NCBI RefSeq assembly: GCF_024498255.1
Contig: NZ_CP101808.1
Span: 124,001 to 188,000 of the forward strand
DNA: 64,000 nucleotides
Direction: 5' to 3'
Source of the DNA: Mycoplasmopsis equigenitalium
GTDB lineage: Bacteria > Bacillota_I > Bacilli_A > Mycoplasmatales > Metamycoplasmataceae
Positions 8,187 through 60,510 of this stretch are shown here, one piece after another; within the stretch, counting starts at the first letter, position 1, and each line of letters opens with the position of its first letter. Both the position numbers and the translations under genes were made by a program. The notes beneath the pieces were generated by a model, which did no database searches, was not told the DNA's origin, and saw only the letters and a program-made list of their open reading frames with translations.

Positions 8187-8204
8187 AAAAAAAAAAAAAA
8201 AAAG
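8187..8204. repeat. Homopolymer tract, A18 (T18 relative to fruA)
   Basis: Eighteen consecutive A on the plus strand, between the divergent fruA and arcA starts. For fruA it lies upstream of AT-rich Pribnow-like sequence, in the position where length changes could alter promoter spacing. It is the longest homopolymer I noticed in the window. Confidence 0.95.
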
Positions 8205-33061: not shown

Positions 33062-33086
33062 AAAAATCAGCGACTGCTGATTTTTT
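33061..33086. terminator. Bidirectional terminator between yidC and tsf
   Basis: Stem AAAAAATCAGC / GCTGATTTTTT with a GACT loop, T8 beyond. It separates the convergent yidC and tsf genes. Confidence 0.87.
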
Positions 33087-54950: not shown

Positions 54951-55706
54951 ATGGCGAATAAATGTTTTATGGAATTTTATTATAGTGTTGACAAAGAAAT
55001 TTATGACTTATTTGTTGTGCAAAAAGAGTATGAAAAAAACAATGGTAACATTTTGAAATACCGAGGTAAAATGTTCTGTCCAGAATGTAAAAAAGCCGAA
55101 TTAAGCTTTACTCATAAGACATCAAATAAGCGTGCCTTTTTGTCAAAGAAACCATCTTCGAAACATATTGATGGTTGTTCATTAATACATAATTATGCAA
55201 CTAATAGAGAAGTAAAACAATATATTAAAAAATTATCTGGTGAAAAAATAGATGATATGTTAGAATCGGCATTGAATTTACTACTTCCTAAAGAGGAAGG
55301 AACAAGTTTTAGTGCAACAACACACACTAAAGAAAATCCTTTAGTAATACAATCTAAAGGTAAAAACGGGAAACAGATTACAAAAACAATACCCAAAAAA
55401 TCTTTAAATAGGTTGTCAAATCAAATAGAAGAGGGTAAAGTATTTATATTTTATGGACACGTAAAGTTATATGTTGTATCCATCGATACCAAAGATGGTA
55501 TTTGTTATAAGTTAAATCTCAAAGTCAAAAAAGGCAACGAGTGAAAATGGGTTGCAAGTATTTTTAGGTATCGTAATGAAGATCAAGTTGATGAAAATAA
55601 AGTTTATGATTTAGCAGTGTTAGGTCATATCGAATTTTATAAAGGATATCCACAAATTAGAACCAAAAACTTTTCTGATATTAAATGAAGAGAGATAACA
55701 CAATAA
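54951..55706 (+). CDS. Zinc-ribbon protein of unknown function
   Basis: 251 residues; not assigned to a family. The N-terminal half has a metal-like site: MFCPECKKAELSFTH, then KHIDGCSLIH, a CPxC-H-H-C arrangement reminiscent of the N-terminus of CoiA-like proteins. A middle linker is Lys/Thr-rich, and the C-terminal 110 residues (KVFIFYGHVKLYVVSI and on) look like a beta-rich domain. There is no membrane segment. Two TGA codons near the end encode Trp. It is first in a group of accessory genes between the ribosomal operon and uvrC. A nucleic-acid role is only suggested by the ribbon. Confidence 0.7.
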
Positions 55707-55995: not shown

Positions 55996-57183
55996 ATGAG
56001 TTTATTAGCTAAATTATTAACTAAAATTGAAGAGAAAAAGGAAGAATTAATTAAGATTCGCCACCATTTACACGCTAACCCGGAAGTTAGTTTTAAAGAA
56101 TTTAAAACCGCAAAATTTATAAAAGATTTTTACGCAAATAAAGATGTAATATTTTCACGACCTTTATCTAGTAATAATTTGGGTTTTACTATAACAATAG
56201 ATTCTAAAAAACCAGGAAAAACTATTTTAATTAGGGCAGATTTTGACGGTTTACCAATCAAGGAAACTACAACTTTGTCTTATAAATCAAAAAATGGTGC
56301 TATGCATGCTTGTGGCCATGATGTGCACACGGCGTATTTAATGATTTTGGCTGATGTTTTAATCGAGTTTAAAAACGAGTTAAAAGGTAAGATTGTTATT
56401 ATGCATCAACACGCTGAAGAAACACCACCAGGTGGTGCTAAAGAAATGATTGAAGCGGGTTTATTAGAAAATATTGATTATGCCTTAGGAATTCATGTTT
56501 TAGGCAATTATGAAACTGGAGAGGTATATTTCCGCTTCAATGAAGCACAACAAGCGCGTGATAAATATGAGATTTGCATTATTGGTAAAGGTGGGCATGG
56601 TTCGCAACCTGAAAAAGCCAATGATGCTATTGTTGCAGCATCTTACTTAGTAACTGCTTTACAAACAATCATTAGTCGCCGGATTTCATCAAATGATCGT
56701 GCCGTTTTGAGTGTGGGTTCATTTGCGGGCGAGGGTACATTTAATATTATTCAAGAAAAAGTAAATTTAGAGTGTGATGTTAGATATGCAAAGGATGAAA
56801 TAGGTGAATTAATTGCTGAAGAAATTAATAAAATAGCAAAAGGGTTTGCCTTAGCGTTAAGTCTTAAAATTAAAGTTAAGCGTCAAATTGATTATCCGGT
56901 TTTAGTTAATAATAATGAACTTACAGATTTAGCACTCAAGTCATTAAAAGAAGCAAATTTACCAGAAATAAAAGCAGTAAATGAATTGGGAGATATTTTG
57001 TCAGCAAGCGAGGATTTTGCTTATGTAGCAAATAAAGTTCCAAGCTGTTTCTTTTATGTTGGTGGCGGCATAAAGAATCATCTTTCATAGCATCACAACA
57101 GTAATTTTGTTATTACTGATGAATCGGCATTGATAAGTACTAAAGCAATGGCGGTTATTGTTACTAAATTAATGGAAAAATAA
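55996..57183 (+). pseudogene. M20-family amidohydrolase/peptidase, interrupted by TAG
   Basis: M20D-type metallopeptidase (hippurate hydrolase/aminoacylase-like). Present: RHHLHANPEVSF, the metal motif HACGHDVHTA (about 98-107), the acid pair EETPPGG and the dimerisation domain with GKGGHGSQPEKAND. At codon 365 (57088-57090) a TAG replaces a sense codon; the same frame then continues for 30 residues (HHNSNFVITDESALISTKAM and on) to TAA 57181. That end contains the family's last metal-binding His in HH-x-x-x-F. The truncated product would lack a metal ligand and is probably inactive. A one-base change such as CAG or TAT to TAG is enough. Sequencing error is possible. Confidence 0.85.
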
Positions 57184-57323: not shown

Positions 57324-58907
57324 CTATTGATCTTTTTTAATCATTATTTGTGCAAAGGGAAAATTATCATATATTATGTGTGCTATTTTTTCTTGTCTTT
57401 TATAGATATATTTTTCTTTTTCAGTTTCAAATTCATCTATATTGATTTTATTAATTTCAGTGTTTTTTAAAACTTCATCATTTTTTCAGGCTTTTTCATA
57501 TGCCGATTTTTTTTGATCAACATATTCATTTTTAATTCTTTTGTTGCATGCTTCAGGAAGAAGAAACATATTTCCGATATTTTCAATTAGTTTATTTTTT
57601 TCTTCCGAATCAGTTGGTCAACCTCCTATCATTATTCAATCAGAATTTGGATTTTGCGGGAATATATGCTCAAGATTTATATTTTTAGTGTCCACTTTTA
57701 AAGCGTTGTTTTTCATGATTATGCCAAGAAGAAGTAATGCTTTTTTATATTGAGGTTTTATTTTTGGATCTCCTAATTTATTTTTAAATTCATCAAAATC
57801 AATTTTTAACGTTACTTCATCGTTATTGATTTTGTTTATTAATAATTTAGATATTTTTTCTGCCGCCGTTCCTGTATTTATTTCTTTTATTATTTCTTGA
57901 ATTATTTGTAAAAATTTGGATGGGTTAACTTTTTTGAAAGAAAAAACAATACTTACCATCATTAATGGAAATATTATTTTTTGAAAAAAAGGATGGTCAT
58001 ATTTTAATGGTAATTTATTCTTTATGTGTAACGCATATAATACATCTAAGATTGCGGGTCTATTCATATCTTTGATAACCGTTGTAATGGGGTCGTTATC
58101 AATTTCTTTTAAATTAGAAATAATCGTATTAAAATTTTTAAAATCATCTTCGTTATTTATGACGTGTTGATTTAAAAAAGCAAACATTTCGATAGGACCT
58201 ATAGTTTTCGTGATATTTTGTGTTTTGTGTTTGTAATAAGCTAACGTTTTTTGCGTTAGTTTTGGTATTTTATTCTCTATTTTAACATCAAATTTTTTAG
58301 CACCATGATTTAGCGCAGTTGCCAAGATATCATCTTTTTGTAGTGGTTTTCCACCACTATTTATTTGTTGAAATATACTAAACGCATCGTCCGCGTTCTT
58401 ACATATTTTTTTATATATGTACATTCTGTTTTTAATAATGTCAATGATTTCTCTTATTTTGTCTTCGTGATTTAATAAAAAACTTTTAAAATTCAAATAA
58501 ATTTTTTTAAAAGGATTTTTAATTACATTATTAATAAAATGGTCTTTGTATTTTTTATTTTGCTCATATATATCGTAACTTAAATTAAACATCTCTATGC
58601 TAATATTTTTTAGTTCTTTTTCATTTATGTGGTCCTTGATTGCTTTAATTAAATTATTTATTGTCACAAGTCTTTGTTGTCCATCAGCAATCATTAGTTT
58701 ATCGTTGTTTTTGTAACAAATAAAATCAAGTAAGTAAAAATCACAATCTTTATTTTCTATACCCTTGAGTAAATCTTCTTTTATTGCTTCGATTTGTTCG
58801 ATTTTTCAAGAATAAGGACGTTGAAAAATTGGAAATGATATTTTTTCATCTTTTAAACTATAAATTTTTATATATTCATTAGAAAGGCTTTCATTTTTAA
58901 TAATCAT
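57324..58907 (-). CDS. DUF262/DUF1524 (GmrSD-like) defence protein
   Basis: 527 residues. N-terminal DUF262: ISFPIFQRPYSW (about 24-35), then MIADGQQRLVT (about 72-82), the nucleotide-binding DGQQR motif, and FQQINSGGKPLQKDDIL (about 175-191). C-terminal DUF1524 nuclease: NLEHIFPQNP (His-x-x-Pro) and IGNMFLLPEACNKRIKN, an HNH-like fold. Fused GmrSD proteins in other bacteria are NTP-dependent restriction enzymes, typically against modified phage DNA; related DUF262 proteins occur in SspE and BrxU. Third gene of an operon after a methyltransferase (59318) and a 135-residue protein (58911); 3-nt spacing. Many in-frame TGA codons. Target not inferable. Confidence 0.85.
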
Positions 58908-58910
58908 TAT

Positions 58911-59318
58911 TTATTCTCCTTTTCCTGTATTATTAAATTTCTCATTTCATTTATAAATAATTTTTTTTCCAGCTCTGACGAGATTATGTTCAGTTTTATA
59001 TTCAATTCCTTTTTGATGTATAAGTCCATCTTTATGATTTGCATTACTTGTGAATATATTTCTTAATATTACTCTATATCTTTTTTGTTTATTTGATTTA
59101 AGAGTTTCTTGAAAATATGAAGGTATATAAGACAAGTTAGAATTCAGAATTTTATAATAGCAGTCAATTAATGTTTGGCTGTCAATGGGTTTAGCAAATT
59201 CTTTAATATCTTGTACTGCAATATCTCTAATTAATCTTCAAAACGCATTTTTTGCATTCTTATTTTTTGATGTGTTTAGCAATAAAGAAAGCTCTCTTTT
59301 TAATACGTCTCCAATCAT
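58911..59318 (-). CDS. Hypothetical protein in the methyltransferase-GmrSD operon
   Basis: 135 residues, start ATG overlapping the methyltransferase stop (TAATG). I do not recognise it. N-terminal half is helical and charged (MIGDVLKRELSLLLNTSKNK), followed by YYKILNSNLSYIPSYFQETL and a basic region with RYRVILRNIF. The end is hydrophilic (KWNEKFNNTGKGE). No membrane segment, no known nuclease motif (no PD-ExK or HNH pattern seen). Possible roles are a specificity or control subunit, or a restriction subunit of a new kind; none can be chosen from sequence. Conservation of its order between the methyltransferase and DUF262 genes would support a functional link. Confidence 0.65.
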
Positions 59319-60456
59319 TACAATATCTCCTTTTTATGCACTAAAATTAAATATTCTTCAACATAAGGCTTTCTATTTTTTAAATTTCTAGATCCTCTGT
59401 AAGTAATGTAATTAAAACTTTTTATTTTAACATCGCCAATTTTTTTCAATATTTTTTCTAATTCGTCTATTTGTATAAATCCTTCTGAATTGTATGAAAT
59501 TAAAAGATATGATGCTTTAGTATCCTTGCACAATTTCTCCATTTGCTTTAGTGCAGAACTTTTCGTATTATACTTTGATTTGTTCCAATTTTGTGGTATA
59601 CCAGAAACTTTTGAAATTTTCGATGGTGATGGTTCGATATAATCATTTATTAAATTCAACATAAAATAGTTTGAACCATACGGATGCTGATTATATGGGG
59701 GGTCGATGTAAGCTAAATCGATTTTGGGTATTTGTTTACAAATTTCATTAGCATCACCTTTAAAAACGTGAACATTAGTATTAAACTTACTTAAAACAGG
59801 CTTTTTAATTTTGATATCACTCGTAATTCTATTTAACGCATATTTGCCATTACCACCAAATTGACCAGTTTTTGTATCTGAATTTTTATAAAAACCTTTA
59901 AAAATTCCGGCAGTGTTATTTTTTGTTGATGCTTCATATAATAATGGTCCTAAAAGTAATGATTTATAAGGCTCGGGAACTTTTTCGATGTATTGTCTAG
60001 CAGTATCCAAATATTTTGCATTACGAGAAGTGTAAAAGACTCTATCATTTTCTTTTATATTTTTATCATCATGAGGAGCATAAAGTTTATAAATAAAACC
60101 ATTATCAAAAAGCGGCTCATTTTCGAGCTTTTGACTGATTTCATCGTAGTACATATCAAGTTGATTTAAATCAATTTCATTTTCGTTTTTTAAATAACAT
60201 TTATTTAATGTTTCGCAATAATTTTCTAAATCATTTGTGTAAAGATTAGTAGAGTATCGTTTTAAAAATCTTGAAACAATTCCCGAACCCGAAAAAGCAT
60301 CAAACACATCGAGTTTTTCTTTATTTAATTCTTTTAAAATTGTTTTTAAAATTTCTTCTATTGATACGAGAAAAGAACGCTTATTTCCTAAATAAGTAAT
60401 TATTTGTTCTTTTAGAAATCTCTCTCTCTCTCTCTCTCTCTATGTTCTATGTCCAT
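59318..60456 (-). CDS. DNA adenine methyltransferase, phase-variable, OFF in this sequence
   Basis: Start ATG 60456, 6 nt after AGGAG, followed by GAC ATA GAA CAT and (AG)11. In this copy the ATG frame stops after 14 codons (TAA at about 60412). The methyltransferase frame (60418 onward) starts with a TAG upstream of the repeat and has no ATG or GTG before motif I, so it is not translated in full. With 10 or 13 repeats the two frames join, giving 378 residues. Features: ITYLGNKRSFL (SAM binding, D12-class), DAFSGSGIVSRFL (motif I) and IDPPYNQHPYGSNYF (motif IV DPPY), all for N6-adenine methylation. First gene of an operon with 58911 and 57324. Confidence 0.85.
60420..60441 (-). repeat. Dinucleotide tract (AG)11 in the methyltransferase 5' end
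   Basis: Twenty-two bases of perfect AG repeat on the coding strand, from the fifth codon after ATG 60456 onward. Reading-frame arithmetic: in frame when n is 10 or 13 (n mod 3 = 1), out of frame at 11 and 12. Slippage here would switch the gene on and off. Confidence 0.95.
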
Positions 60457-60510
60457 TTATTACTCCTGGGTATTTGTTAAAACAAGTGGTATTTATTCAA
60501 TACTTTCAAA

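Follow-up and report, generated by a model that had tools for sequence, protein, structure and literature searches.

Nucleases of the GmrSD type are known in two settings, as enzymes that act alone on phage DNA carrying modifications and as the effectors in phosphorothioate (PT) systems. DndI is toxic without the mark and cuts DNA unless self DNA bears PT, which causes the enzyme to release it (PMC11662687), while SspE is inactive until PT activates it (PMC9646914); both cases show that a nuclease of this kind can be linked to a mark on self DNA. Here we describe a locus of Mycoplasmopsis equigenitalium in which a GmrSD-family protein is encoded together with an adenine DNA methyltransferase and a small protein of an undescribed family. 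The three genes (the trio) lie in the window, which is the whole 64-kilobase (kb) stretch analysed and corresponds to C1:124001-188000 of genome G000, a single contig of 806,532 bases. The recurrence of the trio in seven further genomes goes beyond chance and marks it as a genuine unit. The explanation that we prefer, and to which we give an even chance, is that it would form one restriction–modification system with a Type IV-like nuclease driven by nucleoside triphosphate (NTP), presumably serving defence.

Like the trio, the DndI system (IscS-DndBCDE-DndI, 9JFL) has a GmrSD protein with DUF262 and DUF1524 domains, the DGQQR and HNH motifs and a genetic tie to a DNA-marking module, but its mark is PT made by dnd genes and it has no small partner, whereas the trio has a single adenine methyltransferase. 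SspE (SspABCD-SspE) shares the two domains and their motifs and is likewise an effector keyed to a self mark; it differs in its PT mark, in its 771-residue chain and in requiring the mark for activity, and the position of its PT-sensing tyrosine is a phenylalanine in the window protein. The Type IV enzymes GmrSD, Eco94GmrSD and BrxU, mostly single chains, carry the same Pfam domains as the trio GmrSD but target modified phage DNA and have neither a methyltransferase of their own nor a small partner. Type IV enzymes are by definition without a cognate methyltransferase, whereas one is fixed in all trios found and is probably cognate. Among Type II-like loci, D12 methyltransferases of the same clade (about 45–58% identity) stand beside a nuclease gene, which there encodes a single EcoRI-family enzyme in place of the small protein and GmrSD. 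Finally, in the Type III system MmyCI of Mycoplasma mycoides subsp. capri an AG tract switches an adenine methyltransferase that is first in its operon, as in the window (PMC3498834), but MmyCI consists of a Type III Mod and a Res helicase-nuclease of an unrelated nuclease family. A full-text literature search of partial coverage found no published description of the trio.

Frame analysis of the window places the three genes on the minus strand in the order D12-class methyltransferase, 135-residue small protein and GmrSD protein (Table 1); TGA encodes tryptophan in the genes of this genome. The ATG of the small gene overlaps the methyltransferase stop in a TAATG at 59318, and 3 nucleotides separate the small gene from the GmrSD gene. 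All of this (coordinates, strand, order, overlap and gap) had been given in an initial annotation of the stretch and was re-found on the sequence, and the DPPY methyltransferase and DUF262/DUF1524 protein that it named were borne out by Pfam matches above the cut-off and by their motifs. The trio has a GC content of 25.5% against 31.2% for the window, within the lowest 2% of windows of the same size, which is compatible with horizontal gain. In an empty-site comparison within the genus, the flanking genes of G001 lie on separate contigs and G002 is without one of them, and no empty site was demonstrable.

To assess conservation, the methyltransferase was used as bait in 320 genomes of the same order and in a wider contig collection, and alignments of the small protein were searched in samples of the class (395 genomes) and phylum (392 genomes); the order, class and phylum samples overlap. 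The initial annotation had held that its defence reading would lose its support if the trio were confined to this genome. Complete trios were found in seven further genomes of the class, namely G202 (locus L052), G276 (L051), L066 (a metagenome-assembled genome of Acholeplasmatales), L080 (on the same contig as G516), G622 (L218), G458 (L219) and G581, which has two identical copies (L220 and L221). The order was always methyltransferase, small protein and GmrSD, with neighbours spaced by about -20 to +19 nucleotides, and every strong match to the small protein in these three samples lay inside a full trio. There are two size forms, a short one pairing a small protein of 125–135 residues with a GmrSD of 522–533 residues and a long one pairing about 200–219 with about 586–614 residues. 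All three genes are unbroken in five of the other genomes. The trio is rare and patchy, occurring in about 1% of the sampled genomes. In G581 both copies have as neighbours a tyrosine integrase and a Zot-like gene of filamentous phages, which suggests that an integrative element carries them. Directly after the trio of L066 (L066:9057-10010) is a gene for a 318-residue protein with a C-terminal NOV_C domain (PF13020), a possible fourth component or a neighbouring defence gene.

The GmrSD protein of the window matches both GmrSD_N (E 2.1e-22, 80.7 bits, cut-off 33.2) and GmrSD_C (E 2.9e-14, 53.6 bits, cut-off 23) in the same chain, with FQRPYSW at residues 28–34 and EHIFPQ at 413–418. The family has been defined by DGQQR and the E/D-H-N-N residues (PMC4619093), and D75–R79, E413, H414, N446 and N455 are invariant across the alignment of trio GmrSD proteins. 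More broadly, the NTPase and HNH motifs (P-x-x-Q-R-x-Y-x-W, DGQQR, EHxxP and two asparagines) are retained in all eight. The DGQQR NTPase domain suggests that NTP would be used, unlike in orthodox Type II enzymes. The solved structures closest to the trio GmrSD profile are DndI (9JFL, E 2.3e-20), two 818-residue DUF262 proteins (20yv and 20yw), SspE and BrxU, the last being a weak match (E 2.3e-6). The PT-sensing tyrosine (Y30 of SspE, Y25 of DndI) corresponds to F28 in the window protein (P-I-F-Q-R), and across the eight trio proteins this position is F in five, Y in two and V in one. A search for DndC (TIGR03183) gave no match in the genome, sspABCD not being searched separately. Because no DndC was found and the tyrosine is replaced by phenylalanine, the mark to which the nuclease responds is most likely the N6-methyladenine (m6A) of the trio's own methyltransferase.

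The methyltransferase belongs to a Type II family (Pfam PF02086, E 3.9e-18, above cut-off; PADLOC MTase_II, E 6.5e-105), has FSGSG as motif I and falls in a clade with at least 408 relatives. An EcoRI-family nuclease adjoins members of this clade in 28 examined loci (in one example PF02963 at E 1.3e-16), and in six others the neighbour is a protein of 348–374 residues ending in an HNH nuclease. As the same clade is paired with EcoRI-family and with HNH-ending proteins, the restriction half appears interchangeable, and the simplest reading of these neighbourhoods is that the small protein and GmrSD would be one of several restriction halves swapped onto the same kind of methyltransferase. A tree built from 117 methyltransferases joins the window copy to those of G622 and L066 (Shimodaira–Hasegawa-like approximate likelihood ratio test, 96) and has other trios elsewhere among EcoRI-partnered relatives; the trio label changes four times on this tree, with at least three changes forced by supported branches, a pattern that swapping of restriction halves onto one type of methyltransferase would produce. 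Avoidance of palindromes as a hint to the recognition site was not informative (for GAATTC, as an example, 34 observed vs 44 expected in 95 kb). The HNH-ending protein directly follows the methyltransferase in L090, L092, L095, L110, L113 and L118 and looks like an uncharacterised family of restriction enzymes; its structure model (predicted local distance difference test (pLDDT) 55.5) was not used.

The unknown family claimed for the 135-residue protein agrees with its lack of a significant Pfam match; searches of PADLOC and NCBIfam also gave no match, and its family profile has no sequence match in the PDB. An AlphaFold2 model from three sequences (pLDDT 78.5, predicted template modelling score 0.73) has helices at 21–41, 47–60 and 80–89 followed by strands at 105–112 and 117–124, which is the order of a winged helix. 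The matches from Foldseek include PadR, a replication terminator and other winged helices, as well as ribosomal proteins, none with E < 0.1. The structure prediction and remote-homology search proposed earlier therefore gave a winged-helix-like model of fair quality, which suggests this fold, but neither a family nor a significant structural match. The protein probably supplies or helps target recognition. Its conservation was visible only through the methyltransferase bait and through alignments: homology was detected between the window and G202 copies (E 4e-5) and between those of G202 and G276 (E 2e-7), both in a small database, and the window and L066 copies are 51% identical, while searches with the single sequence found nothing in the contig and viral-contig collections, and no copy was found on plasmids. 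A match in G230 proved to be an antisense false match, and weak matches in G449 and G179, whose neighbourhoods contain no methyltransferase or GmrSD, were rejected as chance or generic helix-turn-helix (HTH) similarity; a further weak match lies in G027. Comparison of the small-protein profile with the N-terminal part of the HNH-ending proteins of the L090 family gave P 0.002–0.01 (probability 4–14%), and these proteins rank directly behind the true homologues among 559 neighbour proteins. Homology between the small protein and the N-terminal region of these alternative partners is suggestive only.

In the deposited sequence the ATG of the methyltransferase at 60456 is followed by (AG)11 and, directly past the tract, a stop. 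The first ATG, GTG or TTG in the methyltransferase frame occurs only at 60307, beyond the start of the conserved N-terminal YLGNKR and just ahead of motif I. Since the tract shifts the frame and no start codon precedes 60307, the gene is OFF in the deposited genome. The tract is a short tandem repeat within the reading frame that is able to shift it, and it is the sole dinucleotide run of at least six units in the window (3e-10 expected under a first-order Markov model). The same kind of tract changed length and switched a methyltransferase in M. mycoides (PMC3498834). The trio of G276 has a GA tract of its own (L051:3360-3377), which lies inside the body of the methyltransferase and not where the window has its tract, and which is out of frame, with the small and GmrSD genes open; from its position this is likely an independent switch in the same system. 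The phase-variable methyltransferase of the initial annotation is thus supported by the kind of tract and by G276, although the frame is out as deposited, and from this one assembly we infer that the AG tract is a probable phase-variation switch. In G202 an A8 tract (L052:7800-7807) marks a frame break in the small gene, with the methyltransferase and GmrSD intact. The frame states of the trio copies could in part be artefacts of assembly or culture.

It had also been proposed that the genes are translationally coupled and that the switch sets the whole operon. Each of the three genes has its own ribosome-binding site (Table 1), and that of the small gene means that coupling to the methyltransferase is not required. 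No Rho was found above the cut-off in G000, only sub-threshold matches that are probably ATPase relatives. Both observations weaken the case for a whole-operon switch, and because of them the small protein and GmrSD are likely still made when the methyltransferase is OFF.

In the restriction–modification system that we propose, the D12 methyltransferase, as its family implies, would place m6A on a short site in self DNA, and the small protein and GmrSD would together act as the restriction half, the former supplying or aiding target recognition and the latter hydrolysing NTP through DUF262 and cutting or nicking DNA with its HNH domain. Self DNA would be spared by the methyl mark, which might prevent recognition or else prompt release in the way that PT does for DndI, and the slippery AG tract would turn the methyltransferase on and off. 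A protective mark is favoured by the partner-swap pattern, in which EcoRI-family enzymes stand beside the same methyltransferase clade, and a McrBC-related system offers a case of a Type IV-type nuclease that acts on unmodified sites together with methyltransferases (PMC12707154). Three points weigh against our proposal. The methyltransferase is OFF in both G000 and G276 while the small and GmrSD genes are intact and look independently expressible, and a nuclease that cuts unmarked DNA without needing the methyltransferase should damage these cells. Characterised GmrSD and BrxU enzymes cut modified, not unmodified, DNA. Furthermore, none of the structural matches that point to a winged helix is significant.

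The first of these points bears on a different logic, in which the mark licenses the nuclease: GmrSD would stay inactive until it detects methylation on self DNA or is bound to the methyltransferase, and would then attack invading DNA, so that defence is safely off when the methyltransferase is off. The two genomes with an OFF methyltransferase and an intact GmrSD do favour some dependence on the mark or the methyltransferase, the ribosome-binding sites and the lack of Rho suggest that the effector genes stay expressible, and SspE, a DUF262/DUF1524 relative, needs the host PT mark for activity (PMC9646914). We nevertheless regard such licensing as possible but rather unlikely, as the known sensing pocket is not conserved, given the variation at the tyrosine position, the same methyltransferase clade adjoins EcoRI-family enzymes, known members of which are blocked by methylation, and the length of a tract in a consensus sequence can be an artefact of culture or assembly. 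Only tentatively, then, would we suggest that a DUF262/DUF1524 effector has been rewired from PT or phage modifications to the m6A that its operon makes and has a small DNA-binding protein as a distinct subunit, and that a phase-variable methyltransferase, with the effector genes remaining open, lets cells pass from a marked and armed to an unmarked and disarmed state without self-damage.

Returning to the proposed protective system, its small subunit might instead be a regulator resembling the controller (C) proteins, leaving GmrSD alone as the nuclease. In many Type II systems the nuclease gene is accompanied by one for a small controller protein that binds DNA, fusions of controller and nuclease are known (PMC12707154), and a winged helix is compatible with this role. 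We regard a regulator, too, as possible but rather unlikely, because the small protein has no XRE/HTH family match in Pfam, PADLOC or NCBIfam, stands beside GmrSD in every trio, and has short and long forms that match those of GmrSD. It is less probable still that these genes are the decaying remains of a mobile element, with the switching of methylation as their sole live function, present or past: the low GC content, the patchy distribution and the broken frames here, in G276 and in G202 would fit decay, but the small and GmrSD genes of the window are intact with all catalytic residues kept, the breaks in the two methyltransferases occur at dinucleotide tracts of the sort that is typical for reversible switching, and five other genomes have unbroken trios. 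Very improbable, finally, is that GmrSD works alone as a common Type IV enzyme on the modified DNA of phages, with the methyltransferase a mere neighbour. In its favour, GmrSD genes cluster in defence islands near other systems (PMC4619093) and G000 has a second, solitary GmrSD_N protein (L048); against it, seven further genomes keep the three genes in one order and almost without gaps, with a methyltransferase of this clade and the small protein each time.

The trio is a new variant of restriction–modification and introduces no new principle, as the nuclease family, the methyltransferase family and switching by tracts are each known. If our explanation is true, a conserved operon that joins a GmrSD with a plain adenine methyltransferase and a novel small protein would represent a separate design of restriction–modification system, paralleling the known reuse of a McrBC-type nuclease beside methyltransferases, and it raises the question of how the cell survives with the methyltransferase switched off. 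Because several trio copies from outside the mycoplasmas read through in the standard code, the trio can readily be tested in laboratory strains.

Table 1. Features of the trio locus, in window positions
Feature	Position	Strand	Basis or remark
D12-class N6-adenine DNA methyltransferase gene	59318..60456	-	frame interrupted at AG tract as deposited
Ribosome-binding site AGGAG of methyltransferase	60463..60467	-	sequence scan
(AG)11 tract near methyltransferase 5' end, probable phase-variation switch	60419..60441	-	out of frame as deposited
Methyltransferase motif IV, DPPY	59693..59704	-	motif inspection
135-residue protein, undescribed family, predicted winged-helix-like; probable DNA-recognition subunit	58911..59318	-	conserved in all trios
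Ribosome-binding site AAGGAG of small gene	59327..59332	-	sequence scan
GmrSD-family protein, 527 residues, DUF262 (GmrSD_N) NTPase and DUF1524 (GmrSD_C) HNH nuclease	57324..58907	-	Pfam
Ribosome-binding site AAGGAG of GmrSD gene	58916..58921	-	sequence scan
DGQQR motif of NTPase domain, residues 75–79	58671..58685	-	motif inspection
EHIFP, first part of HNH motif (E413, H414; then N446, N455)	57657..57671	-	alignment

Elsewhere in G000, the second GmrSD_N protein (L048:6687-7940, approximately G000:C1:90686-91939) has 417 residues and a CxxC/HNH-like C-terminal end, and is not part of a methyltransferase operon. The same locus contains an XRE-type HTH fused to a Dam-like D12 methyltransferase (L048:10102-10986, approximately G000:C1:94101-94985) with an early frame stop, which is probably decayed. 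Near the trio, a gene on the opposite strand (window 54951-55706) encodes a 251-residue protein that contains a CPEC motif and matches no family. An M20-family peptidase gene (window 55996-57183) has a frame break near 57085, and its relative in G001, of the same genus, is open (402 residues). The window has just one more long simple repeat in addition to the AG tract, an A17 homopolymer at 8187, the next longest being T9 at 33081.
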